This document shows positions 11,201-30,369 of a stretch of 64,000 nucleotides of DNA, one piece after another. The DNA comes from Verrucomicrobiales bacterium. GTDB taxonomy: Bacteria; Verrucomicrobiota; Verrucomicrobiia; Verrucomicrobiales; DEV007. The stretch is taken from assembly GCA_002698785.1 (NCBI GenBank), contig PAAG01000059.1, positions 620,001 through 684,000 on the forward strand, in the 5' to 3' direction. Position 1 is the first letter of the stretch, and each line of letters starts with the position of its first letter. The notes beneath the pieces are model-generated. The model was not told where the DNA came from. It saw only the letters and a program-made list of their open reading frames with translations, and did not search any database. Position numbers and translations under genes: made by a program.

Positions 11201-11506
11201 GGTGGCCTGCTCCGCTTTCACCTGAAACGAAAGCCCTTCGATCTCGACGGGATAGAAACGACGCATCGCCTGCACGTAGCCCCCGCCACCGGTGAAATCT
11301 CCAATCAGTTTCAAGCAATCTTCACCACGAACACCTGCTCCGGGATCAACCACTAGTTCGCCAGTCGCCCCCGGAAACTCCCGGCCATTATCGAAGCGCC
11401 ATCCGGCTGCGACATCGGAGGGATCGATCAGCGGAATAGGCGCTCCCATTGCGAGCGTCAAAGACGTTGCAGAGATAAAGAGGAAGAAGGAGAGGGTCCG
11501 GTTCAT
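8210..11506 (-). CDS. Secreted multidomain glycoside hydrolase, clan GH-A-like
   Basis: About 1098 residues; the ATG at 11506 gives a signal peptide (MNRTLSFFLFISATSLTLAMG), and an upstream start at 11536 is less likely. Two related beta-sandwich modules occur in tandem (about 30-215 and 220-395); compare GWRFDNGREFPGATGELVV with EWGFSNGPEFKGATGDLVV. A third CBM-like module follows (about 400-540). The catalytic (beta/alpha)8-like part begins near 660, with the acid/base motif VNLGNEPHG (Glu about 758) and a likely nucleophile in WSTELGL (Glu about 847). A C-terminal beta domain ends the protein. This pattern fits GH39/GH5-like enzymes of clan GH-A. It is divergent from the Tat protein at 11629. 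The exact family and substrate are uncertain. Confidence 0.72.
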   Translation of the reverse strand: MNRTLSFFLFISATSLTLAMGAPIPLIDPSDVAAGWRFDNGREFPGATGELVVDPGAGVRGEDCLKLIGDFTGGGGYVQAMRRFYPVEIEGLSFQVKAEQATRFTMRIGDGSGQTHQIDIGVEPDNGWQEIEFPIQRFFESRGTAEAVTNVLRYQSWGGADDGKWHGEATYICFLLGNGGSDTVRTMWLQDLDLDPLPQAVEGASVIQTISLSEVYDGLHEWGFSNGPEFKGATGDLVVLEKESEFPIFQLSGNFTNGGAYCGTTRSLREFNVEDIKAIRMEVRSENVGSITLRLSDSTGQAHQRRGFRIEESQTWKELVIYPEEIAGGEHWGGAKDGKWHGPAQSLFLSVTNVSAPDKKPVLQFRNVQADMVVPVFSAQPVLTETFETEAIPSDWKTEGNVEFSGDSQSLNLTRELDDIETSISVETAAFQVEPGQWLLTLRAQPDLHSPDNSYRAAVDFVGLSSAGEVVQTIPALDITGKSEWSNYQRKVDIPTGVKRGALRIHFEKTYGSLGIDDLSVTPLAPAPITESKVDRILFSSAQLGNLLFPDDARDFTVEVHCRKPLTNSERDLSWVVRDYWGAEQGSVQSVHLGSPEKSGNSFVYRASLPCGDLPLEVGRYYELHASLSGAEGKNSENHSGFAILPEAETHQYAPMEVPFTARNWDNRVEAYVRLTHRLGVRVCGLWGRWSSKPPYEAQVPQLELVKELGMGWLTNTPAAQIERGSTDYTSEALEKGVLNLLENFGDYRPMIVNLGNEPHGTGERVLKNVEAYKTLYKAIKSFDPDLPVVATSVEPNEEYFQAGYGEYCDAFDFHIYESAERVRRTIGEYRELQKEYDVVKPIWSTELGLNSQGMTRLRVAGELHKKFATFFAAGGENVSWFGLLYPDPEGKALGTFGDSHNVFDSRYNRYNPRLDAVAYYHGVNAISVKDFVEEKHYPNGVRAFLFRDSEEESLIVLWSEEERKDVMLQLDGVTDLSGIDIDGSPFSLKSESGQYHLGVAEPLLLRFRGEAHLPEGLLESSVSIGSELSSISRSGTTKIPFETSEELSGKLKLAAPPRWTVEGGTIEAPDRTEARELFLVLKGNGNVYLPFRVPVSE

Positions 11507-11628
11507 TCTCCAAGACCATATGCAAAATTCTTTCATGATTACCAGCGGGAACAGATCACGATTCAGGAACAGGCAATCCGTATATGCGCATTGCCCTGAT
11601 AGCCATTTCTGATACCGTCCACACCTCT

Positions 11629-12907: not shown

Positions 12908-15900
12908 TCAATCTCCCGATAAGATCCAGTCGGCAATTTCCCGGAGCGTTTCCTCACCGAGGAAATCGAACTTCGGCATGGGAGGGAGCTCTGGATTCTT
13001 GTTTTCTGGATTCATCGCCCACTTCACAATACCGTCCGGATTTCCGGCATATCTTTGGCGAATTTCCGCAAAGGGAGGACCAACAACTCGCTTGGTTGGA
13101 TGGTGGCATGCGGTACAGGCCGCTACCAATGCTGCTACCCCTCGTTCAGGTGCTGCCGCTTGCGTGAGCGTCACCTTCTCAATCTTTTCGTATCCAGGAA
13201 ACTCGGTGAAAGGTTCTCCCAAATGGTGGACTGTCGCAAAAACCTCGATTCGGGAGTCCACATTGCAATGGAGATGCAATTGGTTGACTGGCTGCAACTG
13301 AGGCATCTCGATGAAGACTTTTTTTCCACCGTCCAATTTCTGTATAGAATGGATTCCTAGAACATCGTGCCCTGCCTGAGCAGGATGGCTCACCGAATAC
13401 TCGGGAGACCCATAAGCCGGAGCGTAGAGATAGTTCCACTGCTGAGCGAACCAGTTTTTCGTTTCAAAAACCTCATCTGCCTGAGGCGACTCAAAGGTCA
13501 GGAGAATTCCATTTTCTTTCGTCTCGTAATCGACGGGATAAGGATATTTTTCTGCCGTGTAGCGAACACGCTGCAAGCTGCCATCCTGCGTACCGTAATT
13601 TCCCCACCCCTGTGCGCCGGCAACGTAGAGCTGACCATCGTACGGAGAGAATCGGCCACGATGACCTCCTGACAAAAAGCTACCCGGCAACTGGATCGCT
13701 GCTGCCTGGGATTCGCCATCAATAACTTCGCGATACATCAGGAAGTATTTCGCATACCCGCCTGAGAGGTGGATCCACTTGCCCTCCACAGGTCCCCACT
13801 GATCACTGTTGATGTAAACCTGCTCCGCACTGGAGTTATCGACGCCGCGGGGGAAATAAATCATAGGAGGCACATAACCGCGCGGACCTTCCTTCGGCCC
13901 GCCAGCTCCAAAATGCCCACCAAGGCTGACGTCACATACCGCACTAGCCGGAGTCCATGTCCCTTCCTGAACACTGGAAAGGATGACTCCACCATCTGGC
14001 GAAATACCGAGACCATTAGGATTGCGAAGCCCCGTTCCAAGGACTTCTACATCGTCGCCATCGGACGAGATACGAATGACTCCCTGGTTGCCCGATGCGG
14101 TATACCATCGTCCCTGATCATCCTGCTGAAGACCGGTGATGAAATCATGGGCTCCCGGAGAAGTGTTCCATGCCGCAGTTACACACTCATAAAAGTCGGC
14201 CTCATCGTCGCCGTTACGATCATGAAGAGCCACGATCTGATCCCGGCAAAGAACGTTGATGGTGCCATCGACAACCTTCAGTCCGAGTGGTTGATGGAGC
14301 CCTGCTGCGTATCGTTTCCACGTGAGAGATGCAAGCTCATCACCTGACAAATCACACACCCATACGTCGCCGTGGATGTTGCAGATCGCGATTCGATCCT
14401 TCGATACAAAATCGACACCAGCAACAAAGAACAAAGCTTTCCACGGATTTTCGAATGGGAGTGTCAGGGTATCTATCGCATAAGGATGACCTTCACCCAT
14501 TTCCCCTTTTGTTTCGATTCTCTCGGGCCAAATGGCATCTCCAGTAGAAGGAGCTTCAACCAGTTTCTCAATAACTTTTCCGTTCGAGACTTCTGCCGTT
14601 TTGTATTTCACCTCCCCTTCTTCGCTGTATGAGAAGATTACCTTTTCCCCGATACGATGGAGTCCCAGGTAATTGGAATCTTTGGCGGGTTTAGGAAGCA
14701 TCTCTACAGCTACCTCCTCTTCTCCCCCTATCGGGATTCCCTTCATGAATCCTCGGCGAACATCGGACCACTCTACCAAATCCCCTTTCCAAGCCAGAAC
14801 GAACTGTAGTGAGTCTTCATCAAAAACGGCATTTACATCTTCGGAAAGCTTCACACTGACGGCCCTCGGCAGTGTCATTCCCTTTCCTCGGAAAACACCA
14901 CTGACCATCGATCCGTGATTCATGTCTCTTACCCTGCCATCTTTCCAAGTGTCCTGGTCGTTCTGGTTTCCCCAATGACCATACTTTCCTCCGTCCAGCC
15001 CTGCATAGGCAGGCAGCACATCTGGGATCTTTTCCATTTGCCCGTAGTGAATGGCCTGCTTTGCATAGAAATCGTAGACACGATCACGATTGATCTCCGC
15101 CTCCCAGTAGGGACTGTACTCTGGCTCCAGAGGTTCACGGGGAAATTCGGGAATTGTCGCGAATGAATCCGCAGCAGTGTCCTTTTCAAAGTTCCAAAAT
15201 CCTAACACATCATTTTCATCTCCTGAGAGAGGTTCATCAGATACGGAAGCCGCATCGTCGTGAATACCCTTCCTGATTCGCACTTCATCTATGGCGCCAT
15301 TCATTCGCAATCCGCCACTGATCAACCGGCCGATTCCAAGATTGCCCGTAATCACTCTTCCCTTATTTCGCTTAATCGGCTGATCGGCCACCTTTGTTCC
15401 GTCAACAAAAAGACTGATGCGATCTTCGTCGTATTGCATTGCGAGTGAGTGCCATTTTCCATCGGTAATCACGGACTTGCTCCGAATGTGATCCGGTTTC
15501 GCGTCGGGTAGATATGCGGTGAAAGTTCCATCACCTCTCATCGCAAAGATCTCCCAGTGGGCAGCCGACTTCTTCGGATCGCTAGCCACGAGAATGTGAT
15601 AATCACTACCAGAAAGTTTTGCTCGACACTCCACGGTGATCGGAGGCTCTCGCCAGTCGGTGTTTCCGCTGGCCATAATGGAACTCGAAAGAGCCGTTCC
15701 GAACTTCTCATTGAGCGAGGGAACCGTTTCCAGTTTTTCGGGAACGGCAGACTCTTTGGCCTGAAACGATACGTCTGGCAGCAATGGACGCTTTCCACCT
15801 GAACCGGTATCTACAGTCTCCTGTCGAAGCCACTCCAACCCATTCAAATTATTGGAAAGGGCCACTTTCGTATCCATCTCGTTACGATGGTCGATGATGC

Positions 15901-16642
15901 CCACTGGCCCGGAGTAGCCCGAGTCAATCACCGTGCGGAGCATTCCTAGTTCGTGCTCTCCCTGTGACAAAGTGAGGATCTTGGGGTCGGCTCCTGAGTT
16001 CATCCCATTCAGGTTGAGGCAAATCAAGTATGGCTTCAGCATATCGAGAGAGCTGGCCCAATCTTCGATATGCCCGTGGCCATGATGCCAGTTGTATACG
16101 ATTCCTACATGATCATATCCCCTTCGCCGAAGGCTCTCGCATACCGCGATCATATTCTCCGGCTCTCCTCCCCAGCCACCATGGTTGTACAATCCTAACT
16201 GACAACCCAATTCGGCTGTCTTTTTCGCCAGTTGCTCCATCGAGTCAGCTGCCGCCTCTACTTTTTCTTCCTGGCTTCCTTCGCTTGGGCTACCCAGCGT
16301 TCGCCAGATTTGGGGATGAAGGTCGTATTTCTTAAAGAGGCGATACGCTTCGTCGTGCCCCGCCCAGAAGGCGAACAGCTCGATCCCGTGTTTTTTGTAC
16401 GCCAGAATTTCTTCTTCGAACTGGGAGACGTGCTCTTGGCGAAAATCGTAGGCACTTCGACGGATGCCGAGTTCCTTCAACATCTTCGCCCGCTCATCCG
16501 GACCACGCTTTGCGGCATCGAAGGGAACGATGCACCAAGCGACAAGATTCTCGTCTTTCAGATTCTCGGGAATCTCGGTCGCATTTGAGGAGAATGCGAT
16601 ACCAAGACAGGTGGCGATAAGGAGGGTAGTTTTTCGAATCAT
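12908..16642 (-). CDS. Secreted TIM barrel / LamG / beta-propeller / cytochrome c fusion
   Basis: 1244 residues with a signal peptide (MIRKTTLLIATCLGIAFSSNA). Domains in order: a sugar-phosphate isomerase/epimerase-like TIM barrel (about 25-290; LGLYNHGGWGGEPENM, VGIVYNWHHGHGHIEDW); a LamG/concanavalin-like sandwich (about 320-500; LFVDGTKVADQPI); a long heme-binding or sorbosone-dehydrogenase-like beta-propeller (about 530-1110; GLRNPNGLGISPDGG, FSPYDGQLYVAGAQGWG); and a C-terminal class I cytochrome c with CTACHH (Cys about 1176) and probable axial Met in ELPPMPKF. Such assemblies are characteristic of Planctomycetota/Verrucomicrobiota. Probable role: periplasmic oxidation or binding of a sugar with electron transfer to heme. 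It is the next gene after the amidohydrolase, four bases away. Confidence 0.8.
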   Translation of the reverse strand: MIRKTTLLIATCLGIAFSSNATEIPENLKDENLVAWCIVPFDAAKRGPDERAKMLKELGIRRSAYDFRQEHVSQFEEEILAYKKHGIELFAFWAGHDEAYRLFKKYDLHPQIWRTLGSPSEGSQEEKVEAAADSMEQLAKKTAELGCQLGLYNHGGWGGEPENMIAVCESLRRRGYDHVGIVYNWHHGHGHIEDWASSLDMLKPYLICLNLNGMNSGADPKILTLSQGEHELGMLRTVIDSGYSGPVGIIDHRNEMDTKVALSNNLNGLEWLRQETVDTGSGGKRPLLPDVSFQAKESAVPEKLETVPSLNEKFGTALSSSIMASGNTDWREPPITVECRAKLSGSDYHILVASDPKKSAAHWEIFAMRGDGTFTAYLPDAKPDHIRSKSVITDGKWHSLAMQYDEDRISLFVDGTKVADQPIKRNKGRVITGNLGIGRLISGGLRMNGAIDEVRIRKGIHDDAASVSDEPLSGDENDVLGFWNFEKDTAADSFATIPEFPREPLEPEYSPYWEAEINRDRVYDFYAKQAIHYGQMEKIPDVLPAYAGLDGGKYGHWGNQNDQDTWKDGRVRDMNHGSMVSGVFRGKGMTLPRAVSVKLSEDVNAVFDEDSLQFVLAWKGDLVEWSDVRRGFMKGIPIGGEEEVAVEMLPKPAKDSNYLGLHRIGEKVIFSYSEEGEVKYKTAEVSNGKVIEKLVEAPSTGDAIWPERIETKGEMGEGHPYAIDTLTLPFENPWKALFFVAGVDFVSKDRIAICNIHGDVWVCDLSGDELASLTWKRYAAGLHQPLGLKVVDGTINVLCRDQIVALHDRNGDDEADFYECVTAAWNTSPGAHDFITGLQQDDQGRWYTASGNQGVIRISSDGDDVEVLGTGLRNPNGLGISPDGGVILSSVQEGTWTPASAVCDVSLGGHFGAGGPKEGPRGYVPPMIYFPRGVDNSSAEQVYINSDQWGPVEGKWIHLSGGYAKYFLMYREVIDGESQAAAIQLPGSFLSGGHRGRFSPYDGQLYVAGAQGWGNYGTQDGSLQRVRYTAEKYPYPVDYETKENGILLTFESPQADEVFETKNWFAQQWNYLYAPAYGSPEYSVSHPAQAGHDVLGIHSIQKLDGGKKVFIEMPQLQPVNQLHLHCNVDSRIEVFATVHHLGEPFTEFPGYEKIEKVTLTQAAAPERGVAALVAACTACHHPTKRVVGPPFAEIRQRYAGNPDGIVKWAMNPENKNPELPPMPKFDFLGEETLREIADWILSGD

Positions 16643-18038: not shown

Positions 18039-18776
18039 CTACCCCGCACTGTGTCTCTCACGCCACTCCGTTGGAGTAACATCGAACAACTTCCTGAACT
18101 CTCTGGATAAGTGAGCCTGATCACTGAACCCACATTCGGCTGCAATTTCTGAGACAGACTCTCCTGTTTGTATGAGAGCGGCAGCGGCCCTGGCGAGACG
18201 GAGCCGTTTTAAGAACTTCATTGGGGAGGTTTGCAGGTGCTTCCTAAACTGCCTTTCGAAGGCACTTACTGAGAGACCAGACATTTTTGCCAACTTCCCG
18301 TTACTCCATGCAGAGGACGGATCTTTCTGTAACGCCTGGAGGGCAGGCGCTAACTCTGGAACAGGAAAACCTGGTGACTGCACCCCGGGAAGGGGTTGGG
18401 TGATGCCCGCTGTTGCTCCAATTCTACCTGCCTTATTGGTCACCGGTATCTTGGTCGTTCGGTTCCATCTCGCGGCATGATCGAATCCGCCGACAAGCTC
18501 AATACGATTCACTATCCGCTCCCCGGCAAACACGCGAAGGTCATCTTTGAGAAACCCCTCAGCCAACCACGGAGGAGAGAGATCGAGATCAGTCAGTCCC
18601 AGCACATCCTCTCGGCGGGCGAGAGAGTAGTTCAACTGGAATGCACGATTGATCTTCAGGTATCGGCATTCGGCGTCCTTGATCCAGAACTGCGTATTCT
18701 CCATGTGATCGAAGAGTGCCTCGACCTCACGGTGATTCAGTTGCGCCAGGGCAGAATCCGCACCTTCTTGATTCAT
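18039..18776 (-). CDS. AraC family regulator with PAS-like N-terminal domain
   Basis: About 245 residues. The ATG at 18776 overlaps the stop of the upstream deaminase (ATGA), so I prefer it to the ORF start at 18845, and translational coupling is likely. The N-terminal part (FWIKDAECRYLKINRAFQL, then LDLSPPWLAEGFLKDD) looks like a small-ligand PAS sensor. The C-terminal 100 residues form two AraC helix-turn-helix units (GKLAKMSGLSVSAFERQFRK; VSEIAAECGFSDQAHLSREF followed by FDVTPTEWRER). It probably controls adjacent genes. The direct repeat at 17994-18023 is a candidate target. Confidence 0.87.
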   Translation of the reverse strand: MNQEGADSALAQLNHREVEALFDHMENTQFWIKDAECRYLKINRAFQLNYSLARREDVLGLTDLDLSPPWLAEGFLKDDLRVFAGERIVNRIELVGGFDHAARWNRTTKIPVTNKAGRIGATAGITQPLPGVQSPGFPVPELAPALQALQKDPSSAWSNGKLAKMSGLSVSAFERQFRKHLQTSPMKFLKRLRLARAAAALIQTGESVSEIAAECGFSDQAHLSREFRKLFDVTPTEWRERHSAG

Positions 18777-19225
18777 TCCTCCCCGATGTCTTCGTTCCAG
18801 ATATCGGGTCGAGCCTCGATAAAGGTCTGCATCATCTCCATGCATCGATCATTTCGGAAATTCACGACCTTTACCCCAAAATCGCGTAGCCAGTCTTCCC
18901 CGCCTCGGAAAGTCTCGGATTCGCCGATCACCACGGTGCCGATTTGAAACTGGCGAATCAATCCGCTGCAATACCAACAGGGAGACAATGTCGTGACCAT
19001 GATCTTGTCCCGATACGTCGACTGGCGCCCGGCTTTCCGAAAAGCGTCAGTCTCTCCGTGAATGGACGGATCGCCTTCCTGCACTCTTCGGTTTCGGCCG
19101 CGACCAAGGAGCTTTCCATCGGGCCCGTATAGTGCAGCTCCCACAGGAACTCCTCCCTCGGACAATCCGGTTTCCGCTTCTTCTATTGCAACACTGAGAA
19201 GTGACTCGAAATCCAGTTCTGCCAT
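18773..19225 (-). CDS. Nucleoside/cytosine deaminase family protein
   Basis: 150 residues with the zinc-dependent deaminase signature: HGETDAFRKAG (His ligand and catalytic Glu) and SPCWYCSGLI (PCxxC with two Cys ligands). Length and the GVPVGAALYGPDGKLLGRG start match cytosolic cytosine/guanine/nucleoside deaminases of the yeast FCY1 type. It would convert cytosine to uracil, but the substrate could also be another aminated base. The ATG is at 19225. Its stop overlaps the AraC regulator start by four bases, so the two form an operon. Coupling a deaminase to an AraC/PAS regulator is unusual and its meaning is unclear. Confidence 0.85.
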   Translation of the reverse strand: MAELDFESLLSVAIEEAETGLSEGGVPVGAALYGPDGKLLGRGRNRRVQEGDPSIHGETDAFRKAGRQSTYRDKIMVTTLSPCWYCSGLIRQFQIGTVVIGESETFRGGEDWLRDFGVKVVNFRNDRCMEMMQTFIEARPDIWNEDIGEE

Positions 19226-19266: not shown

Positions 19267-22200
19267 CTACTCAAATTTTTGGGCTTCGTCAGGACCGGGG
19301 GTCGCATAGTCCGGATCCTTCGCTCGAATGTAGAGCTCACCATCTTTCAATCGGACATCCAAGGGGACCAGAGTTGTCCCGCGTTTATTGATGGTTTGCG
19401 CGGTGTCGCTGAGATCGCGACTCTGAATGCCGTCTGCGCTCACCGGTGGAATGTTCCCATTGTAAAAGGCAGTGCACCACCAGCGCCCGTCATTATCCTG
19501 AAACGGAGTTCCATGCCCAAGGAAGCGCCCTGCGAATTTTCGCTCGCTATAAGGACCGGTGATCTTGTCAGCAGTCGCGTAGTAGAGATTGTAGCTCCCA
19601 CGGCGCATGAGGCCGGTCGACCAGCCCGTTCCGAAGAGGACATATTTCCCTTCGATCTTCATGATTAGGCAACCTTCATGTCCCATTTTTGCTGCATCGC
19701 CCGAGGGTTTGATGTCGACGGCCTTTCCTGCGAAACCCGAAAAATCAGGCCTCAATGGAGCAATCGTCGTCGCTCCCCATACCATCCAGTAGGTGCCATC
19801 ATCATCTTTAAAAAGTGACGGATCGTGGCGACGTCCAATTTCGGCACCCATAGGGTTGATCCACGGCCCGGAGATTTCCGGACCTTCAGAAAGTGATAGA
19901 TTGGCCCCTTTCACAGGAGCAGGGCTCGTGTGCACCAGCGCCCAGCGATCCATTTCTGCCACCCAGTGCAATTCAGGCGCCCAGAGCCGCCAGTCTTTGA
20001 CTGGAGTCTTCTCAAATAAGTCACGATGCTCTGAGAACCAAATTCCGTCCTTTAGAGAAAATGGCGAGTCGAGCTTCTCCCATTCGATGAGGTCTTTGCT
20101 TTTCCAGATCTGTGCAATATGCCCAACCACTGACTCGTCGCCCAAACCAGTGTTGTAGGGATCTGATTTTTCGCGAGGGTCGACCGGATTCGGTGTCGTG
20201 CCAGTCAGGTAAAATGTGCCGCCTGGACCTTTCGTGATGTACGGATCGCGAATCCATCCTTCTTTTACAAACAGTGCTTTGTCGTGTGCCTTAAGTCCCG
20301 CTTCGATCTCAGATGAAGGCATCGCCTTTGCGACTTTCGGTGGTTTGCCTCCGGTATCGACGCGGGTTGAGATGATGGTTGAGTTAAACGGATTTGGAGC
20401 CTCGTAGTTACCTGCGGCTGAGAGGAGGTCTTTTCCAACAGAGAGACCATCTTTTGGTTGTTTGGGAATGAATCCCGGAGAGTCAATCAAATGAGGTTTT
20501 TCTCCGTTCACAGCGATGCTCATCTTTTTCTTTTTGAGTGCGGCTTCCACACGGATGACACCCTTCTCTACTTTGCTGCTTTGAATGCTGGTCACCTTTC
20601 CATTGATCCTGACATCAAACACGGCAAGGCCATTCCGGAAGTGAACCGCATAGCCATGCTCTCGCCCGCCCTGCGCCAGTACAACACCATCCGGCTTCTC
20701 CCGACGCGTGTTCACCTCGACCACAATCTCGATCGACCGCTTTGCAATCTGGGGACTGCCATCGACATCTGTTTCGGATGTCTTTTTCTCCTTTCCCCGA
20801 GATACAGCTTCCGGGTACGTCGAAAGAGTCGCGCGCAACTCGCTCAAGACCTCGGGATTATCTTCGGCGAGATTTCTTGTTTCGAGCGGGTCTTCTTCAT
20901 AGTCATACAATTCGACTTCGGCTGTCGAAGGATCAGCTCCCGGAGTCTTCCATTCCACCATTCGATATCTTTCGGTGCGGATCGCCCGCCCCATCTTTCC
21001 CTTCGGATAAGCGTGAAAGGCATGATCTCGAACGCGTGCGGACGGATCTTTCAAAACAGGCACTAGACTGACGCCGTCAATTGGCTGCGGCCCTTCTGGC
21101 TTTGGCAGGCCAGCGAGTTCTGCGATCGTCGGAAAGATATCGACACTTTCTGCAAGCTGACGGGTTGATGAACTCGGTTTGGTAACTCCCGGAGCACTGA
21201 TAAGAATTGGAATGCGGTTCGCCTGCTCGTAGTTTGTATGCTTGGTCCAGATACCCAGGTCACCTAAATGGAAACCATGGTCCCCCCAAAGGACAATGAT
21301 AGTGTTTTCGGTCAGCCCAAGCTCGTCGAGTGAACCGATCACTTTCCCAATTTGCTCGTCAACAAACGAAGTGCTCGCGTAATAGCCATGAATGAGTTGG
21401 CGCTTCACTTCATTTGAGATGGAAGCCGGGTCCCCTTTGTCGGGGACAGGGAAGTAATTTCGAATCTCCCCGCCGCGTTTGCCGGCAACTGCGGGAGCGC
21501 CTTCGGGTAGCTCTTCATACTCCGGCATAGGCAATTTGTCAGGATCATAGAGATCCCAATATTTCTTTGGCGCTGAAAACGGGAGGTGAGGCCTGGCGAA
21601 ACCGGCTGCAATGAAAAACGGAGTTCCTTCGCTTTCGCTCCGCTCTTTCGCGGCTTTCAGGCGTTTAATCGTTTCCCTGGCTACCCGTCCATCTGCATAC
21701 GCTTCATCTTCCACATCAGGGGATTCAAATGCAGCCCCACGCGGAAGCTGATTCACTCGGTGGAGTTCTTGATTTGTGAAAAATGCTTCTTCTCGAGTCA
21801 ACTCTCCGCCGGGCGTGCTGGCGGGGTCCACATACTCGATAACCTTTTCTTTAAAATGAGGAATCGAAAACGAATCAGGATCGCCGTTATTCCCATGTCC
21901 GATATGAAATACTTTGCCCAGCGACTCTGTGCGATACCCGCCATGCTTGGCGAAAAATTGCGGAATAGTCACGGCATCGGGAAGAATGTCTCGCAACTCA
22001 CTTCCCAATCCGTAGAGCCCGGTTGACGTGGAGTGAGAGCCTAACATAAGAGTGAACCGAGAAGGCGCACACACAGCCTGATTACAATAGGCAAGATCAA
22101 ATCGCATCCCCTTCTCCGCAAGCGCATCGATATTCGGAGTGATCGCTGTCTCGTTCCCATAGCAGCCGAGCGCAGGCTTGAGATCGTCGACAAGAATCAG

Positions 22201-22278
22201 AAGGACGTTGGGCTTGTCCGCATAGGACGAGGCGCATAGAGCCAGTAATAGCAGAAAAGCTGTAGTGAGTTTCTTCAT
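19267..22278 (-). CDS. Sulfatase fused to GH43-like five-bladed propeller
   Basis: 1003 residues with a signal peptide (MKKLTTAFLLLLALCASSYA). Domain 1 (about 22-490) is an iduronate-2-sulfatase-like sulfatase with formylglycine site CAPSR (Cys70), the metal site LVDDLKPALGCYG and the later WGDHGFHLG. Domain 2 (about 500-660) is beta-rich and LamG-like. Domain 3 (about 670-1000) resembles GH43: general base in WIRDPYITKG (Asp about 678), pKa modulator in RRHDPSLFKDD (Asp about 820) and acid in GHEGCLIM (Glu about 865) are all present. One secreted polypeptide would therefore remove sulfate and cleave an arabinose/xylose/galactose-type linkage. It ends the run that begins with the GH127-sulfatase, 11 bases upstream. 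Confidence 0.85.
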   Translation of the reverse strand: MKKLTTAFLLLLALCASSYADKPNVLLILVDDLKPALGCYGNETAITPNIDALAEKGMRFDLAYCNQAVCAPSRFTLMLGSHSTSTGLYGLGSELRDILPDAVTIPQFFAKHGGYRTESLGKVFHIGHGNNGDPDSFSIPHFKEKVIEYVDPASTPGGELTREEAFFTNQELHRVNQLPRGAAFESPDVEDEAYADGRVARETIKRLKAAKERSESEGTPFFIAAGFARPHLPFSAPKKYWDLYDPDKLPMPEYEELPEGAPAVAGKRGGEIRNYFPVPDKGDPASISNEVKRQLIHGYYASTSFVDEQIGKVIGSLDELGLTENTIIVLWGDHGFHLGDLGIWTKHTNYEQANRIPILISAPGVTKPSSSTRQLAESVDIFPTIAELAGLPKPEGPQPIDGVSLVPVLKDPSARVRDHAFHAYPKGKMGRAIRTERYRMVEWKTPGADPSTAEVELYDYEEDPLETRNLAEDNPEVLSELRATLSTYPEAVSRGKEKKTSETDVDGSPQIAKRSIEIVVEVNTRREKPDGVVLAQGGREHGYAVHFRNGLAVFDVRINGKVTSIQSSKVEKGVIRVEAALKKKKMSIAVNGEKPHLIDSPGFIPKQPKDGLSVGKDLLSAAGNYEAPNPFNSTIISTRVDTGGKPPKVAKAMPSSEIEAGLKAHDKALFVKEGWIRDPYITKGPGGTFYLTGTTPNPVDPREKSDPYNTGLGDESVVGHIAQIWKSKDLIEWEKLDSPFSLKDGIWFSEHRDLFEKTPVKDWRLWAPELHWVAEMDRWALVHTSPAPVKGANLSLSEGPEISGPWINPMGAEIGRRHDPSLFKDDDGTYWMVWGATTIAPLRPDFSGFAGKAVDIKPSGDAAKMGHEGCLIMKIEGKYVLFGTGWSTGLMRRGSYNLYYATADKITGPYSERKFAGRFLGHGTPFQDNDGRWWCTAFYNGNIPPVSADGIQSRDLSDTAQTINKRGTTLVPLDVRLKDGELYIRAKDPDYATPGPDEAQKFE

Positions 22279-22289
22279 GTAAACAGGGG

Positions 22290-25200
22290 TTAGTTTGAAC
22301 TCAATCGAATGGGACCGGGGGAATTGATTTGTGAGGCATTCTTCGCTTCACCGGGGTATTCCGTGGGAGGAGGGGTTTTCTCTACCCGCTCATGTAAAGG
22401 CTGGCGATTCGGCCTTGGCGTAGAAGGAACGGAGTCGCCTGTGGATTCGATCCAATCTCCGAGCAATGATCTCATTTCTTGCAGGACTGATCGGTTCTCT
22501 TCGTATCCTGCCAAATCCACTAACTGAAACGGATCATCTTTCGTATTGAAGATCATTTCCTCGGGTTGTGGCACTATCGTTAACAACTCCTGCGCTGGGG
22601 ACAACTTTCCCTTTTCTGCCATTTCCCAGAGCTCTTTCGCCGCAGGAAAAAGAGGAACTGAACTTTCCCCGCTAACATTGTGCTTTTCCGGCCAGCTATT
22701 TCGAATATAGAGCCAGTCACCCGTTCGGACCATTCGTTCGTGGGCCTGATAGACGTGCCAGTTACGTTCCGCAAACGCCACGTCACGGATCGTCGCGGTT
22801 GGCTCCTTGAGAATTGGAACCATGCTCACTCCCTGCACAGTCTCAGGTATTTTTTCTCCCGCTAACTCCAGGATAGTCGCAGAAAAATCAATCGAACTGA
22901 CCAGCGAATCAGATCTTCCCTTTTTCACATCTGGGCCAACAATCAGTAACGGAGTCTGAATACCGCTTTCGTAGAGGTAAGTTTTGCACCGAGGAAAGGG
23001 CCTGCCATTATCCGAGCAATAAACGAAATAGGTGTTCTCCGTGAGGTTTTGACGTTCCAACTCTTTCCAAATTTCTTCGGTGTAATGATCTGTTCGGCTC
23101 ACTTCGTGGTAATAATCTGCAAGCTCCTGCCGTGTGAGCGGTCCATCGTAAAGCATGGGAGGAACTTTGATTTTCTCTGGGTCATACTCCGGAGCATTTT
23201 CGTCGTACTGAAAAGGGTGGTGGGCATCATGGGAAGCGAACCATGCGAAAAACGGTCGATCCTTTGGACGTTCCTTGAGATGCTTGATCCAGTTTTCGCT
23301 TCCGGCCGGTTTGCTATTAGATTCCACATCAAACCCAAGTTCAGCGGCATTGCCCATATGGTTCTTTCCCGACAAAATCGTGTGATACCCTGCTTTGGCT
23401 AACACTTCCACAAATGTCGTCTGATTTTCTGGTAGCGGTGCATGCAGTTCTGGCGCGCCTGTATTGTGGGGATATCTCCCAGTGATGATCGAACAACGAC
23501 TTGGAGAGCAGGAAGAAATCGTCAGATAAGCTTTATCAAAGACCAACCCGTCTTTAGCGAGTCGGTCTAGATTGGGCGTTTCGACTATCTCATTTCCATT
23601 AAAACCAAGGTCTCGGTAGCCAATATCGTCCGTGATGAAGAATACGAAATTGGGTCGCGTATCATCGCTTCTCGGTTGTGGCTTTTCCTGTGCAACCGCA
23701 TCCTTTTTCAATTCCCCCTTCCACTTCACCCAAGGAAAGGCAGCCACGCGAAGGGTCGTAGAGCCGTAGGGAATCAAGGTGATTTCTTCCAGTGTGGCTC
23801 CGTCAGGAAGCTCAGCGGGACTCAGGGGAGGTGGACTCGCGGAGTTCCGGTCGATCTTCCAATCATCGAGGCGCAGACCCCATGTTTTGATTTTCATGGG
23901 AGCCGAATCAGAGGTCCACGGATTATCAGGAATCTCGTCCATGATTTCCAAGGTCGAATTCTTCCCGGGCTGGTTGCGGACTGGCAGCGGAATCGCATAG
24001 TTCCATGGCTTCGTCGGTTTCACTTCCAGATAACCACGATCTGGTCCAGAGTCGGGAACTCCCTCAGGACGAGGTGCGGGGATATGGCTGGACTCTCCTC
24101 TTACATCGAGAGCATACACAAGAGGACCTCGCTCAAAGGATACTGACCTGGCATGCCAATGCGAGGTGGTGATAGGCATTGGAAACCGAAGATTCACCTT
24201 ATCCCCATTTTTCCAAGAGCGATCGATAACGTGCATTGTTCCTGCTTCCACGCTTTCCTCCCTCCTTCCGTTCACAAAGACTTCGGTTCCATTCGCCCAA
24301 GATGGAATTCGGAGATGCAGAGGAAAATCAGTTGGCTCCGAGGTGCTGACTGTGATCGTGGTGCGCTCCTTGAATGGGTATCCTGTTTCGGTCCTGAGGG
24401 TTACTTCTCTTCCTCCCTTAATTTTAGAAATAACCGAAGAAGGGACATACGAGACTGCCGCGATCCCTCCGTCTTTTGATGCCATCCAGAGGTGCTGCGC
24501 AAACTTAGGCCACCCTTGGTGGAGATTGCAGGTACAGCATGGGTATCCCTGAAGCAGGCCGTAGACGACTCGGTCTCCGTTGTCTTCGAAGAAGTCGCGA
24601 TCACCGTGGGTGATCTGAACCTGATTTGTTTGCTGGAAATACTGCCGCCCCCGATGATCGTCAGTGCACTGGGTAGGAAGGGCATTGAAGGTGATCCTTT
24701 CTAACCGATCACCAAAAACAGGATTCCCCGTGATCTCGAACATCTTCTCAAGTGAGAACATCATTTCAACCGCAGTGCAGAGCTCTGACCCACGATCGGG
24801 AGCAGTGCCGTGCATCCCTTCATCACCACCAAACAATCCGTGTGGCTGACCGTGAAAGGTGCGTAGATCTTCGAAGGCAGTTTCCACTGCGGTGAGACGT
24901 TCCGGTTTCTGATCCTGCTGCCAGCGGATTACCGGCGTCTTCATCATCTGCGCCACATTCACACAATGAAGAGCGACGAGATTGGCCATGGGCTGAGGTC
25001 CGACACCTCGATCTGCTTGATACAAAAGCATGTTGTCAGGCCCACGAGAGAACCAGTCCGTAACGGGGACGGTTTGCTGATGAATCAGGTCGGCGAGATC
25101 GAGAAGAAACTTATCGCCCGTGATATTATAGAGCCAAAGCACCGACATCAGATTGTCGCCACCACGCTGAGCCGCCCACCAGGATCCGCTCGCTTTGTTC

Positions 25201-25799
25201 TCTGGATCGTAGAGCGGACGGTCAGGTAATTGTTCCAGCTGAAAACGAAAGTAATTCGTCAGACACTCGATGACTCGTTCATCACCGGTTGCCATGTAAT
25301 ATTGCTGCAGAATTTTCAGCATGACCATTCTCGGCCACCAGTCATCTGGTTTGATTGTCTGAACGCCCGGAGGAGGAGGTTGAGTGCGATCCTCGTCTTT
25401 GATTTCACGTGGTCCGATCTGGCCGTTATCCCTTTGATTCGCCAAAGTCCATTCGATCCATTTTACAGCTTTTGCCTCGAGCTCTTTGTCTCCCAAGAGC
25501 TTCGAAAGAGGATAGAGTCCATCGATCCAGTAAGGTCCCCTTTCCCAAGTATCGGCATCACCTCCCAGCCACGCGTTTCGAGGTCCACAAACCTCCGGAT
25601 ACCACTCGTCGAGATGACCGGTCATTCCGGCCGCCATTCTCTCTAATTCGTTCCGCAACCACCCTTCGGGCTGGACTGCACCCAGAGGCAATTCCGCATA
25701 GGGCTTCTCGGCTAGAGGTGCTCGGTTGAAAACAGGCTCGGTCGCCACAGCGAACTGAGCCGAAAGAATACAAAAAAATGAAAATGCGAGGAGTCTCAT
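22290..25799 (-). CDS. GH127/GH146-like beta-L-arabinofuranosidase fused to sulfatase
   Basis: 1169 residues with a signal peptide (MRLLAFSFFCILSAQFAVA). The N-terminal 600 or so residues match the DUF1680/GH127 family: YWIDGLYPLSKLLGD, SELCTAVEMMF and PCCTCNLHQGWPKF. Glu339, Cys341, Cys421 and Cys422 sit as the zinc/catalytic Glu338-Cys340-Cys417-Cys418 set does in Bifidobacterium HypBA1. From about residue 690 a type I sulfatase follows (FFITDDIGYRDLGFNGNE) with CSPSR (Cys764) and CSDNGRPF later. It probably releases arabinofuranose and sulfate from one polymer. A compound hairpin lies directly before the start codon. Confidence 0.85.
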   Translation of the reverse strand: MRLLAFSFFCILSAQFAVATEPVFNRAPLAEKPYAELPLGAVQPEGWLRNELERMAAGMTGHLDEWYPEVCGPRNAWLGGDADTWERGPYWIDGLYPLSKLLGDKELEAKAVKWIEWTLANQRDNGQIGPREIKDEDRTQPPPPGVQTIKPDDWWPRMVMLKILQQYYMATGDERVIECLTNYFRFQLEQLPDRPLYDPENKASGSWWAAQRGGDNLMSVLWLYNITGDKFLLDLADLIHQQTVPVTDWFSRGPDNMLLYQADRGVGPQPMANLVALHCVNVAQMMKTPVIRWQQDQKPERLTAVETAFEDLRTFHGQPHGLFGGDEGMHGTAPDRGSELCTAVEMMFSLEKMFEITGNPVFGDRLERITFNALPTQCTDDHRGRQYFQQTNQVQITHGDRDFFEDNGDRVVYGLLQGYPCCTCNLHQGWPKFAQHLWMASKDGGIAAVSYVPSSVISKIKGGREVTLRTETGYPFKERTTITVSTSEPTDFPLHLRIPSWANGTEVFVNGRREESVEAGTMHVIDRSWKNGDKVNLRFPMPITTSHWHARSVSFERGPLVYALDVRGESSHIPAPRPEGVPDSGPDRGYLEVKPTKPWNYAIPLPVRNQPGKNSTLEIMDEIPDNPWTSDSAPMKIKTWGLRLDDWKIDRNSASPPPLSPAELPDGATLEEITLIPYGSTTLRVAAFPWVKWKGELKKDAVAQEKPQPRSDDTRPNFVFFITDDIGYRDLGFNGNEIVETPNLDRLAKDGLVFDKAYLTISSCSPSRCSIITGRYPHNTGAPELHAPLPENQTTFVEVLAKAGYHTILSGKNHMGNAAELGFDVESNSKPAGSENWIKHLKERPKDRPFFAWFASHDAHHPFQYDENAPEYDPEKIKVPPMLYDGPLTRQELADYYHEVSRTDHYTEEIWKELERQNLTENTYFVYCSDNGRPFPRCKTYLYESGIQTPLLIVGPDVKKGRSDSLVSSIDFSATILELAGEKIPETVQGVSMVPILKEPTATIRDVAFAERNWHVYQAHERMVRTGDWLYIRNSWPEKHNVSGESSVPLFPAAKELWEMAEKGKLSPAQELLTIVPQPEEMIFNTKDDPFQLVDLAGYEENRSVLQEMRSLLGDWIESTGDSVPSTPRPNRQPLHERVEKTPPPTEYPGEAKNASQINSPGPIRLSSN

Positions 25800-25894: not shown

Positions 25895-26959
25895 TCAACT
25901 CTCACCCATATGGCGTTGAAGAATGTTTTTCCACTCCGCCGTTTGCATGAATTTGAGGAGCTGGATGTTTAAATCCTCGCGTTTGCCAAAATCATTACTT
26001 AGCCCGAGAGCATAAAAGCCAGGTTCAAAAGTATCTTCCAGAACATAGAGTTGATCCGGAAAATCACGGCTCACATAGTAAGACAGCACTGGAGCGTCAT
26101 TCACAAAACCGTCCACTTTTCCCTCTGCCACGGCCTGCAATCCCGAAGCAGTATTTTCAAACGTTTGGAATCGAATTCCCCTGTTCTTCAGCAACTCAGC
26201 GGATGATGACCCTTCAAGCGCGCCCACTCGAGAGCGATACAGATCATCAAAAGATTCTATGCTGGGGGAGAGACTCGAAACAGTAAGAGCTGAAGCAATT
26301 GCCCCAGTGAATCCCGAAATCAAGATGATGGAGGCGAACATCCAAATCAACCCGACGATGCGCCCCGCAAAAGAGACTGGAGCCTTATCCCCGTATCCGA
26401 CGGTGGTCATCGTCACAGCACTCCACCAAAACCCACTACCAAGTCCTCGCGCGGTGCTCCCACCAAACTGCTCTGGATTCTTCTTTCTTTCCGCAACCCA
26501 CACGATCGCCCCTACGATGAATAAGAGGATGCCGAGTGCCGCAAGCGCCCACAAAGCATCAATGGAAATGAGCGCCTTCAGGAACTGCAACACCGTGGAC
26601 TTCTTTTCTACCGAAGTCGCAACACTGAGCCCGGAGGAATAGAAGCTATGTGAAAAATTCATTTTCTCTTCGCGTTCCGGCGTGGTCACTAACGCCGCAG
26701 CTACCACATAGACCTCTCCACTCTCTAAACCATCGATTGCTTCACCCAGTGACAAGGGTTTCAACTCATAATCGAAGCCCAACTCCGGCGCCAACTCCTT
26801 CCACAACTCTACAGAAACTCCTGTCCACTCTCCACCTTCGTCGTAGGAGAACGGCGGAGAAGGCGTGACCCCCACCACCAGTTTCTCATTCGACTCCTGC
26901 GAAGACGCCGATGTGAACAGGAGAAGTGAGAATGCGATACAAGATAAGATTTTATTCAT
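25895..26959 (-). CDS. GluR0-like ligand-gated potassium channel
   Basis: 354 residues; the ATG at 26959 gives the signal peptide MNKILSCIAFSLLLFTSASS, and the longer ORF upstream is not coding-like. A periplasmic binding-protein lobe (about 25-125; VVGVTPSPPFSYDEGGEWTG) is followed by two membrane helices (ALWALAALGILLFIVGAIVW and IVGLIWMFASIILISGFTGA) flanking a pore with the potassium selectivity filter TTVGYGD. The second binding lobe follows (about 225-354; SFDDLYRSRVGALEGSS). This split-lobe order is that of prokaryotic ionotropic glutamate receptors such as GluR0, so an amino-acid-like ligand is inferred. It is the last gene of a run from the VWA gene. Confidence 0.87.
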   Translation of the reverse strand: MNKILSCIAFSLLLFTSASSQESNEKLVVGVTPSPPFSYDEGGEWTGVSVELWKELAPELGFDYELKPLSLGEAIDGLESGEVYVVAAALVTTPEREEKMNFSHSFYSSGLSVATSVEKKSTVLQFLKALISIDALWALAALGILLFIVGAIVWVAERKKNPEQFGGSTARGLGSGFWWSAVTMTTVGYGDKAPVSFAGRIVGLIWMFASIILISGFTGAIASALTVSSLSPSIESFDDLYRSRVGALEGSSSAELLKNRGIRFQTFENTASGLQAVAEGKVDGFVNDAPVLSYYVSRDFPDQLYVLEDTFEPGFYALGLSNDFGKREDLNIQLLKFMQTAEWKNILQRHMGES

Positions 26960-26984
26960 CCGGAAATGGTTACGTTTGAAACCA

Positions 26985-27557
26985 TCAACCGCGCTTGTAG
27001 TCAAGGCGAACGAGTTCGATCCACTCGCTTCCGCTTTGCATAAATACCGAATACCGGAAGCCTCCGTTGGGATTAAACAGAATCTCTGCACGCCCTTCCA
27101 CTCTCTTCCCGGATCTAAGATCTGTTTGTTCAATTTGGAACACAATCCCCTCACCCCCGCTTGCAAGTTTTCCTGACAAAGATGCAATCCCAGTGTTTGC
27201 ACTATCGCACCAGATCCCGACATACTCATTTTGGAGCTTGTCATAACCGAGGATCCCCAGACCATGCAGAACGAGGTCTACTTTGCTACAATTGAAATCC
27301 TGCTGAAGAAATCGCTTACCCAAAATCCAGTTCAGTTTTGCTGTTCCACTAACCATTTCAGGATTCGCATCTTTCGTTATCCTGACAAAGCCCCTCACTT
27401 TCCAGCGCCCTTCCAATTGATCAAGGATACGATGCCCGTCGCCAGGGCTGCCAGCACTTCTCAATTCATCTATCTGATTTTTCCTTTCGTTTTGTGCTGA
27501 ACAAAAGAATGCAGCAAATAACGACAACGTGAGCATCAACAGAATTTTTCTTTTCAT
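26985..27557 (-). CDS. Secreted DUF1579-like protein
   Basis: 190 residues; the ATG at 27557 gives the signal peptide MKRKILLMLTLSLFAAFFCSA, while the ORF start at 27737 runs through the neighbouring gene. The mature part reads like the DUF1579 beta-barrel family: LDQLEGRWKVRGFVR, LNWILGKRFLQQDF, LGILGYDKLQNEYVGIWCDS and a C-terminal SEWIELVRLDY. Function of the family is not established. It lies 25 bases upstream of the channel gene and 35 bases downstream of the prenyl synthase gene, so it is probably in the same operon. Confidence 0.7.
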   Translation of the reverse strand: MKRKILLMLTLSLFAAFFCSAQNERKNQIDELRSAGSPGDGHRILDQLEGRWKVRGFVRITKDANPEMVSGTAKLNWILGKRFLQQDFNCSKVDLVLHGLGILGYDKLQNEYVGIWCDSANTGIASLSGKLASGGEGIVFQIEQTDLRSGKRVEGRAEILFNPNGGFRYSVFMQSGSEWIELVRLDYKRG

Positions 27558-27592: not shown

Positions 27593-28579
27593 TTATTCGG
27601 GCAATTTCACATGCTCGATCAGTTGTAAGATGCGATTCGAGTTCGAATTGAATCCTGCTAACTTGGAAACTGCAGACTCGCGAAGTCGACGAACCGCTTC
27701 TCTCGCTTCCGCTTCTGACAGGACGTTGCCCACACACTGCTTCTCTCCGTCCATACCCGTTGGCTTTCCCAATGCATCCGGATCACCAAAGCGATCCGCC
27801 AAATCGTCAGCGATTTGATAAGCGATCCCTAACCTGATTCCGGCTTTGTAAAAGGCGTTGATTTGAAGTTCATTCGCTCCACATGCAATGGCCGCTCCCT
27901 CTGCGGCGAAACCAAACAACTCTCCGGTTTTGCAGCGCGCCACTTCGAGCGCTTGTTTTTTAGAGACAGTCCCCCCGGTCAACTGAGTCAGATCATGTTC
28001 CTGCCCCAACAGCATCCGATTCGCGACTCTCGCACTCGCTAAGGCGGACGAGATACAGTTCTCCGGCTTTGCCAGCCGATTTTTCAATAGCACTTCATAA
28101 GCGAGGTTGATCATGAAAACCGCCGCCATGTCAACAGATGCTCGAGAATAAACCAAATGAGCACATGGCCGACCTCGCCGCGTTGCTGCGTCATCCATCG
28201 ACGGTAAATCATCCAATAAAAGCGATGCTGCGTGAGCCAATTCCACCGCACACGCAACAGGAACAGCGGCACCCGTATTTCCAAAAATCTCTGCAGTCGC
28301 AAGAGCAACCAGCCCACGCCAACGCTTCCCTCCAGACATACAAGAGTATGTGGCAACCTCGCGAGTCTCAGATTCCGGGAGTGACGAGAATGTAGATAAC
28401 AACGAATTATCGATCACTCCACGCGAAGCTTCCATCCAGGAAAGAAACTCTGATTCTTCCCTGATTGAGGTGTCAGAGGCGGCGGCATTTCCAGAGACAG
28501 ACACGACATAGCAATCGTTTCTTACAAACTTGTCATGCGCAAGAAACTTTAAAGCCAATTCAATCGCAACTTCACCCAT
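27593..28579 (-). CDS. Polyprenyl diphosphate synthase (farnesyl/geranylgeranyl type)
   Basis: 328 residues. The first Asp-rich motif is LLLDDLPSMDDAATRRGRP (DDxxSMDD form typical of short-chain FPP/GGPP synthases), and the second is YQIADDLADRFGD. The GGKRWRGLVALATAE segment binds isopentenyl diphosphate. It condenses IPP with allylic diphosphates to make C15/C20 prenyl diphosphates in the cytosol. The N-terminal 40 residues or so are extra relative to the usual length and could reflect an upstream start. The ATG at 28579 shares one base with the stop of the VWA gene (TAATG), indicating coupling. Confidence 0.88.
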   Translation of the reverse strand: MGEVAIELALKFLAHDKFVRNDCYVVSVSGNAAASDTSIREESEFLSWMEASRGVIDNSLLSTFSSLPESETREVATYSCMSGGKRWRGLVALATAEIFGNTGAAVPVACAVELAHAASLLLDDLPSMDDAATRRGRPCAHLVYSRASVDMAAVFMINLAYEVLLKNRLAKPENCISSALASARVANRMLLGQEHDLTQLTGGTVSKKQALEVARCKTGELFGFAAEGAAIACGANELQINAFYKAGIRLGIAYQIADDLADRFGDPDALGKPTGMDGEKQCVGNVLSEAEAREAVRRLRESAVSKLAGFNSNSNRILQLIEHVKLPE

Positions 28580-30369
28580 TAGCTCGAAGTGACATTCTGC
28601 AAAGCGGCTAATCCGCGCAGAAGCTTCAACTTTCCATGGTTCCGAGAGGTCAATCGACGGAAGTGCCTTTCCTGCTGATCGATCGTTTCTCCTTCGCCCA
28701 GAAAAATAACCATGTTCAAAGAAGGATCGTCGAAGCCCTCTTCTTTGTATTCCAGTTTCACAAGATCCTTGATGTGATCCTCTATATCATCCGGAGTTAC
28801 GGGAGGCAAATTGGGCATTCCTGAGGCAGGAGTTCCTCCAGTTCGCCTCGGTGGAGAAACTCCCGTCCGCTGTTGAACAAGACGGTTAAAATTCACAACC
28901 ACTTTGGGCTTCATCCCCTTGTTCCTACGTGCATCGTTTTCCTTCCGCAACCATTCCCTGGTTTTCGCCACAGCATTGTTCCACGCCTTTTGTGCTGCCG
29001 GATTGACTGTTCCGGGAGTTCCTGGCTTTGGAGGATTCTTTTTCATTTCCTCCAGCATCTTTGGAGTGGGAGTTCTCTGAATTCGCTCGTAGCCACTGGC
29101 AATACAAAATATTGAACTCGCATTCCACTCCATCGCCTTCTGAATCGCTTTCGTATAATGAGCCACATCGACAGCCTGGATAGCAAGCTCTTCACGATCT
29201 GTGACAGAGAGTGATGTTCCGTATCGATCTCGCAGGCCCAACTCATCATACGTTCGGTTCAAGGGGTCGAGCCACTCGATCGCTAGACGAAGATTCGAAG
29301 GCAGACCGGGAACCAGCTCTTCTCGAAATGAAACGAGTCTTTTTCCCTGATACAGTAAGATATTAAATTGAGTACCTCGATTGAGATTGGCGAGCATGAT
29401 GCCGACTTCATCCTTCACTTTGTCGTACGCATCCATGCCGCCCTTTTCATCCACCAACATCTGAGGAGTCGCATCGATGATGAAAACAATCGTTTTCCCT
29501 TTCCCGGAAATTCCAAAGAAATTGATACTGGATTCTTCCGTGAACTTCGTTGAAAAACTGTCCCCATTTCCCAAAGGCTGAATTCCGGCCATCAGCGAAG
29601 GATCAAACATGTTGGTCTGTCGATCGACTTCCGGAATATCGAAACTCGAAGAGGACAGCGAACTGATGATATCGACTGCCTGCGTGGATGCTGCCGCCGG
29701 GGTGATTTCAATATCGGGCTTTGTTATCCGAGGAGTAATTAATTCTGCCTCGCGTTCATGAGTGACCGAGACGACCAACTGCGGCGGCTCTTGTCTGGGA
29801 AGATGAATTGCAACAAGAGAGACGAGAAATAGAACAATTACATGTGCCAGTAGAGCCAAAGCCACTGCGGAGAGTCGATCAGTAGACGAAGAGCATCTTT
29901 GCGCAGGAGGGATCCATTCGGAATCGACAAGCACAAGCTCTCCATCGTAGTCATCCCATTTACTCTTCATCGAACCTCGTTCCACCGAAGGTGCTGGCGA
30001 ATTGATTTTCTCCCATTCGGTCTCTGCGAGAGCAGCACCGCCTCCTCGTTCCCGAGTCAGCCTTTCAGGCTCAGGAGGCACGACCTCAATCACTCTGCCC
30101 TGGCGAGAATCAACAGAAGTCGAATTGTTTTTGTCCCTCTCATTGAGGTCATCAATGGATGCACCCTCGGATACACCTTGAGTGAGAAGGCGATGAAGAC
30201 GCACCTTAATGTCAGGAGGCGTCGGATCGTCGGAAGGATCTTCCCGCACGAGTTGTTTCGCCTTTGATAGATCGCCAGCGCGAACCGCCTCTTCAATCGC
30301 AAGAATTCGAATGTCCCAATCCTCCGGGGACTTCTTCAGTTTCTCCGCAATCGACTCGGCTGGGTTCAT
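28579..30369 (-). CDS. Membrane-anchored VWA-domain protein with degenerate MIDAS
   Basis: 596 residues. The cytosolic N-terminal 100 residues are helical (EEAVRAGDLSKAKQLVRED, TPR-like). One membrane helix follows (LSAVALALLAHVIVLFLVSLVAIHL, about 170-195). The extracytoplasmic part carries a von Willebrand A-like domain: TIVFIIDATPQMLVDEKGG, FNILLYQGKRLVSF and a repeated proline-rich segment. The MIDAS DxSxS is replaced by DATPQ, so metal binding is probably altered. Homologues with this architecture are found in Verrucomicrobiota/Planctomycetota with unknown roles. It is the first gene of the operon with prenyl synthase, and an inverted repeat lies just upstream of its ATG. Confidence 0.72.
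   Translation of the reverse strand: MNPAESIAEKLKKSPEDWDIRILAIEEAVRAGDLSKAKQLVREDPSDDPTPPDIKVRLHRLLTQGVSEGASIDDLNERDKNNSTSVDSRQGRVIEVVPPEPERLTRERGGGAALAETEWEKINSPAPSVERGSMKSKWDDYDGELVLVDSEWIPPAQRCSSSTDRLSAVALALLAHVIVLFLVSLVAIHLPRQEPPQLVVSVTHEREAELITPRITKPDIEITPAAASTQAVDIISSLSSSSFDIPEVDRQTNMFDPSLMAGIQPLGNGDSFSTKFTEESSINFFGISGKGKTIVFIIDATPQMLVDEKGGMDAYDKVKDEVGIMLANLNRGTQFNILLYQGKRLVSFREELVPGLPSNLRLAIEWLDPLNRTYDELGLRDRYGTSLSVTDREELAIQAVDVAHYTKAIQKAMEWNASSIFCIASGYERIQRTPTPKMLEEMKKNPPKPGTPGTVNPAAQKAWNNAVAKTREWLRKENDARRNKGMKPKVVVNFNRLVQQRTGVSPPRRTGGTPASGMPNLPPVTPDDIEDHIKDLVKLEYKEEGFDDPSLNMVIFLGEGETIDQQERHFRRLTSRNHGKLKLLRGLAALQNVTSS

Follow-up and report, generated by a model that had tools for sequence, protein, structure and literature searches.

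Adjacent Sulfatase–Glycosidase Fusion Genes in a Verrucomicrobiales Bacterium and the Independent Fusion of GH127 and Sulfatase Genes in Both Orders

Introduction

Why would two neighboring genes each encode a sulfatase joined to a glycosidase, in opposite order, and on what polymer would the two enzymes act? The question is raised by a gene pair in a 64,000-nucleotide stretch (hereafter, the window) of contig PAAG01000059.1, positions 620,001–684,000, from the 7.0-Mb draft genome (60 contigs; GCA_002698785.1) of a Verrucomicrobiales bacterium. Gene 1 (22290–25799 of the window) encodes a fusion of a glycoside hydrolase of family GH127 to a sulfatase, and gene 2 (19267–22278) a fusion of a sulfatase to a GH43 glycoside hydrolase. 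A reading of the sequence alone had proposed that these are two secreted enzymes with intact active sites, dedicated to a sulfated polymer with arabinofuranose or similar side chains and produced by repeated domain capture. Comparison with related genomes showed that GH127 and sulfatase genes were fused independently, in both orders. On balance, the pair is rather likely to comprise secreted, bifunctional "desulfate and cleave" enzymes derived from fused neighboring genes and acting, probably, on one xylose-containing sulfated heteropolymer.

Domain Architecture and Catalytic Residues

All features described in this section lie on the minus strand. Gene 1, the first in the direction of transcription, is an intact frame of 1169 residues with no internal stop. 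A predicted signal peptide of ~19 residues ending in AVA (25743–25799; read by eye) is followed by the GH127 catalytic domain (residues 90–434; 24498–25532) and the GH127 middle domain (residues 447–541; 24177–24461), recognized by the Pfam profiles PF07944 (7.8e-22) and PF20736 (1.9e-21), respectively, both over the Pfam cut-off. A ~15-residue linker (23661–23705), delimited by comparison with unfused gene pairs at the loci L145 and L098, connects the GH127 C-terminal end to the mature N-terminal end of the sulfatase domain (residues 716–981; 22857–23654; PF00884, 1.8e-48, over the cut-off). The latter contains the C-x-P-S-R maturation motif as C764-SPSR (Cys764 at 23508–23510), and its closest solved structure is S1_8A (9bb9; 28% identity), followed by a sulfamidase and other S1_8 chains. 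The predicted model of protein 1 has a mean predicted local distance difference test score (pLDDT) of 70.6, with the sulfatase mostly well predicted, and a fold search with the whole chain returned one GH127 chain (5mqo) among the 50 matches listed.

Gene 2 is likewise an intact frame, of 1003 residues, with no internal stop. Its predicted signal peptide of ~20 residues ends in SYA (22219–22278; read by eye), and its sulfatase domain (residues 23–390; 21109–22212; PF00884, 5e-42, over the cut-off) contains the maturation motif as C70-APSR (Cys70 at 22069–22071). The closest solved structure to this domain is the Formosa ulvan S1_7 sulfatase 6hhm (Z 36.9, root-mean-square deviation 3.2 over 440 residues, 35% identity). 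A connector domain follows (residues ~515–645; 20344–20736), modeled as β-strands and LamG-like by its similarity to a stretch of another sulfatase fusion in the same genome (L152) that Pfam calls Laminin_G_3; the word "connector" denotes this similarity throughout. The GH43 domain (residues 689–936, with predicted strands from ~669; 19471–20214) scored 77.2 bits against PF04616 (1.8e-21; cut-off 32.2), and the closest solved GH43 chain scored only 57.5 bits. In the model of protein 2 (mean pLDDT 83.0), most of the connector and of the GH43 domain scores above 80; all 50 matches listed for the whole-chain fold search were sulfatases or their relatives.

The two frames, with signal-like N-termini on both proteins and a spacer of 11 bp (22279–22289), lie where the sequence-only reading had placed them, and all four enzyme domains score above the profile cut-offs. 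Because the genes are only 11 bp apart, their co-transcription is likely.

The active sites, which had been thought intact, also appear so from alignments with homologues. In protein 2, residues D31, D32, C70, R74, K122, H125, H231, D333, H334, K346, D678, D819, and E868 are identical in 19/19 aligned sulfatase–GH43 fusions. D819 and E868 line up with solved GH43 chains, and we take D678, D819, and E868 to have the roles of the GH43 Asp/Asp/Glu triad. In protein 1, E327, E339, C341, C421, and C422 of the GH127 domain are identical in 34/34 aligned rows, which represent 26 distinct proteins, the other eight rows being second copies of the same DNA. E339, C341, C421, and C422 line up with the Glu/Cys/Cys/Cys of solved GH127 chains (4qjy and 3wre/3wkw-type) and presumably form the zinc site and nucleophile; the invariant E327, absent from the earlier list of active-site residues, is the likely acid/base.

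Recurrence and Independent Fusion in Both Orders

A search for the same fusions in 95 related genomes (the host and 94 others) showed that both architectures recur. The sulfatase–GH43 chain is present at full length in the host and in 15/94 other genomes, and contig ends truncate it in two more; the remaining matches to this query are mostly to the sulfatase part alone. Loci in which the GH43 half is 72–78% identical belong mostly to Verrucomicrobiales assemblies and point to a host that probably belongs to the Verrucomicrobiota. The GH127–sulfatase chain recurs in 1/94 genomes (G054), and no further example was found in 384 genomes of the class, with two candidates per genome scored (E 1e-110).

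The GH127 domain of the window belongs to a clade of 12 members (support 100/99), in which four are fused to a sulfatase and seven adjoin a sulfatase gene, leaving a single member (L120) with neither. Outside this clade, a neighboring sulfatase was seen in 1/16 rows (L047); many of these 16 loci have flanks of only ~1.5 kb, and two derive from incomplete gene tables. The genomes G310 (L145) and G012 (L098) encode this GH127 and this sulfatase as two neighboring, unfused genes arranged as in the fusion, and both genes begin with a signal-like stretch as judged by eye; at the window junction, the GH127 C-terminal end passes through the ~15 residues directly into the mature sulfatase. Furthermore, G024 and G028 carry fusions of these families in the reverse order, in which a tail resembling the C-terminal end of the window sulfatase precedes the GH127 domain.

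Grouping of the four GH127 fusions into one clade was rejected (log-likelihood 98.8 lower; approximately unbiased [AU] test, p 1e-35), as was, in a quick tree, a single fused clade on the sulfatase half (AU p 0.0116). One fusion with a later domain swap is rejected by the GH127 tree and, less firmly, by the sulfatase tree. The window and G054 chains, which share the GH127–sulfatase order and may reflect one event or two, are sisters in the GH127 tree (95/91) and form no clade in the sulfatase tree, and their linkers differ in length (~15 versus ~165 residues). The earlier proposal of repeated domain capture holds with respect to repetition, which the trees and the reverse order bear out; "capture" is better replaced by fusion of operon neighbors, because unfused adjacent pairs exist in the same order. 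G105, taken at first for a third GH127–sulfatase fusion, encodes separate genes with a different sulfatase. Helicase and rotamase neighbors recur through shared synteny and were not counted as evidence.

A domain scan was made of 80 named GH43 loci and fetched stretches, with architectures defined as stop-to-stop frames. GH43 relatives were found in nine types of fusion frame with sulfatase (S), GH2, or GH5-like partners: S-connector-GH43; the same with a second sulfatase (L020); S-connector-GH43-GH5; S-GH43; GH5-GH43; GH5-GH43-S; GH2-connector-GH43; S-connector-GH2-GH43; and GH43-GH5-GH43, the "GH5" label being based on Pfam scores that were modest (L037 and L033). A connector-GH5-GH43 frame in L031 is cut by the contig end. 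The partner domains occur elsewhere as S-connector-GH2, S-GH2, GH2-S, GH127-S, and S-GH127. In a quick GH43 tree of 86 rows, the fused and single states require nine parsimony changes, six of them forced by starred branches; one split match and two connector-GH43 frames are counted as fused here. A separate clade (97, starred) comprises the four S-GH43 rows, whose assemblies belong to Bacteroidales or Bacteroidia, one of them with goat rumen in its title.

Fusions also lie near one another. In G028 (L099), the S-GH127 frame is directly followed by a different sulfatase–GH43 frame; in G024 (L100), the S-GH127 frame lies 1.9 kb from a sulfatase–GH43 frame, the two facing each other with one frame between; and in G016 (L113), a sulfatase–GH43 frame is followed by a sulfatase–GH2 frame.

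Some individual frames were noted in passing. The frame that follows S-GH127 in L099 (12378–15398) has the order sulfatase–GH43–3-keto-disaccharide hydrolase. At L020:6410–11026, L035:3720–7964, and L113:3–4421, one frame combines a GH43 with two sulfatase stretches, the GH43 of L035 and L113 being of another kind. The goat-rumen Bacteroidales assembly carries two tandem sulfatase–GH43 fusions (L081:48–4860), apparently an independent fusion.

Functional Association and Proposed Mechanism

The association of GH43 with sulfatases was counted in the 69/80 GH43 loci that are each at least 9 kb long with a full match. The S1_7-like sulfatase is within the GH43 chain in 16/69 loci. Among the 53 unfused loci, an S1_7-like gene lies elsewhere in the locus in 15 and another sulfatase gene in 43; among the 16 fused loci, a second S1_7-like gene is found in none and another sulfatase gene in 12.

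In the mechanism that we propose, each chain would combine a formylglycine-type sulfatase with an exo-type glycosidase, such that the sulfatase strips a sulfate that blocks the glycosidase, which would then free the sugar from the non-reducing end. Protein 1 would do so with a GH127-type cysteine/zinc glycosidase joined to an S1_8-like sulfatase, and protein 2 with an S1_7-like sulfatase joined via the β-sandwich connector to GH43. Both proteins would probably act on one sulfated heteropolymer containing xylose and possibly galactose.

Substrate and Alternative Explanations

A xylose-bearing sulfated heteropolymer is the tentatively favored substrate. The arabinofuranose-bearing substrate of the earlier reading did not find support: L-arabinose isomerase (AraA) was not found in the host genome, where other arabinose routes were not searched, and among the 95 genomes it was found in two (G040 and G052), neither of which carries a fusion, some of the carriers being incomplete drafts. 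Xylose isomerase (xylA) is present in the host. In G012 (L098:9956–15067), the unfused GH127, the sulfatase, and a xylose isomerase lie in a row on one strand, with the isomerase at the 3′ end. In L018 and L023, a separate GH43 with a β-xylosidase C2 domain, which the fused GH43 does not have, follows the fusion and may be of the GH43_10 kind; in ulvan breakdown, a GH43_10 enzyme releases xylose (PMC9549685). The host genome yielded no RhaA-type rhamnose isomerase, in a search that did not extend to other rhamnose isomerases; plain ulvan use is therefore less likely, unless another route serves.

Several observations weigh against the proposed function and substrate. Xylose isomerase is common, scoring over the cut-off in 70/95 genomes, and stands beside the GH127–sulfatase pair in one locus only (G012). 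The araBAD genes occur within ~10 kb of two GH43 relatives, one of 41% identity on a Catenovulum plasmid and the other of 46% in Lutibacter. An S1_7-like gene was not seen in 38/53 unfused loci, and the association counts stand without a random-locus background. Regarding the structural models, that of protein 2 has a predicted template modeling score of 0.54, with its Cys70 loop (68–73) at a pLDDT below 50, and the GH127 active-site region of protein 1 is likewise below 50. The groups compared by the AU test were named after the trees had been inspected. Finally, a full degradation locus was not seen in the window, where the neighbors of the pair encode an AraC regulator, an amidohydrolase, an ion channel, and a polyprenyl synthetase.

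The alternative that survives best, which we nevertheless judge unlikely, is a sulfated polymer with arabinose in its side chains or backbone, on which GH43 would act as an α-L-arabinofuranosidase and GH127 as a β-L-arabinofuranosidase. The Pfam name of the GH127 domain refers to β-L-arabinofuranosidase, which is also what most of its closest solved relatives are, the araBAD genes mentioned above share a stretch with distant GH43 relatives (L161 and L093), and sulfated arabinans have been reported from green algae. The distribution of AraA given above argues against it.

Quite unlikely, in our judgment, is action on a carrageenan-like or other sulfated galactan, in which GH127 would be an α-1,3-(3,6-anhydro)-D-galactosidase, the S1_7-like and S1_8-like sulfatases would expose the ends, and a GH2 β-galactosidase would complete the breakdown. 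GH127 does include 3,6-anhydrogalactosidases, and in Zobellia three of them share a cluster with an AraC regulator and a sulfatase of S1_7 (PMC5698469). Three S1_8 enzymes of a λ-carrageenan pathway have been assigned as galactose-2-sulfatases (PMC12549532). GH2 relatives match in 17/80 GH43 loci, and a sulfatase–GH2 fusion lies 37 kb from the pair in the same genome. On the other side, the carrageenan systems are described without GH43 in the parts of the literature available to us, and a further study places sulfamidases in S1_8 and both iduronate and carrageenan sulfatases in S1_7 (PMC6388578). Because the two subfamilies hold such varied activities, the sugar is not fixed by the sulfatase subfamily alone.

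Enzyme domains that have become non-catalytic are known in general, and one half of each chain might be kept only for binding or folding; we consider this very improbable, the catalytic residues being invariant in the aligned homologues. An assembly error joining separate genes, to which a draft in 60 contigs might lend some weight, is hardly credible, because both fused chains recur in relatives (sulfatase–GH43 in 15 other genomes and the GH127–sulfatase order in G054), and both frames are free of internal stops.

Relation to Known Systems

Sulfatase–glycosidase fusions are already known in these bacteria. Formosa agariphila FA22250 (PDB 6hr5), which has a role in ulvan breakdown, resembles the present proteins in carrying both kinds of enzyme on a single chain; unlike FA22250, in which the partners are a GH78 rhamnosidase and S1_25, the pair combines GH127 and GH43 with S1_8-like and S1_7-like sulfatases. 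In the Kiritimatiellales strains F1 and F21, of the same superphylum, S1_7 occurs with GH10 or GH32 and S1_15 with GH29, described as probable gene fusions (PMC6388578). The joining of an S1_7-type sulfatase to a glycosidase is thus shared, whereas the partners GH10, GH32, and GH29 differ, and reversed order and unfused counterparts are not described in the available part of that report. A study of Planctomycetes from Porphyra put the number of multi-domain sulfatase genes at an estimated 34 and 21; these frequently carry glycoside hydrolase domains, fusion was proposed as their origin, and GH43 domain matches inside sulfatases were reported (PMC4807772). The architectures are not named in the portion of that report available to us, and overlap with the sulfatase–GH43 kind described here is possible. 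The carrageenan cluster of Zobellia is similar in that GH127 acts after sulfatases, one of them an S1_7 member, alongside an AraC regulator; unlike here, the genes are separate, the sulfatases are S1_19, S1_7, and S1_17, and GH43 is not described in the accessible text (PMC5698469). A GH127–sulfatase fusion, an S1_7-connector-GH43 chain by that name, and convergence in two orders were not found in the literature, as far as the parts available to us extend.

For many bacterial sulfatases no substrate is known, and fusions can reveal which sulfatase and glycosidase are partners before the substrate is known. The fusions described here form a consistent network with their unfused counterparts and are therefore testable as ready-made enzyme pairs. 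Moreover, fusions of the same two families in opposite orders provide a natural test of whether proximity or domain order is under selection. As a tentative generalization, which we hold to be possible rather than probable, sulfatases and glycosidases acting successively on a single sulfated polymer may have become fused on many occasions, with either domain first, across Verrucomicrobiota, Planctomycetes, and Bacteroidetes. Taken together, the fusions (S-GH43, S-GH2, GH2-GH43, S-GH2-GH43, GH5-GH43, GH127-S, and S-GH127) would then spell out one pathway, with on-chain coupling of desulfation to cleavage as the trait selected.

Host Genome and Neighboring Genes

The host genome is rich in sulfatases, with at least 141 sulfatase-profile matches (150/187 candidates scored) and 26 matches to the domain of the FGE maturase, a domain found in other proteins too. 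At least seven sulfatase frames exceed 800 residues; the extra domains on these frames are GH43, GH127, GH2, a 3-keto-disaccharide hydrolase domain, a peptidase-like domain, a BNR domain, and one unrecognized stretch. The GH2 fusion, the third sulfatase–glycosidase fusion of the genome, is a sulfatase-connector (LamG)-GH2 protein of 1309 residues at C2:598321–602247 (L152:3321–7247), 37 kb from the pair. At L156:4801–7266, a sulfatase is fused to a BNR (sialidase-like) domain.

Downstream of gene 2, on the same minus strand, a Pfam match identifies an AraC-type protein (18039–18845) as a candidate regulator of the pair. Among the other genes of the window, that at 12908–16642 encodes 1244 residues with a xylose-isomerase-like barrel (weak, below the cut-off), a LamG domain, DUF6797, and a weak cytochrome match. 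The frames at 8210–11536 (1108 residues) and 28579–30369 (596 residues) had no Pfam match at E 0.001. The ion-channel gene at 25895–27265 encodes 456 residues with an ion-channel domain inside a solute-binding domain and resembles a bacterial glutamate-receptor-type channel, and a relative of lipase maturation factor 1 is encoded at 32946–34532.

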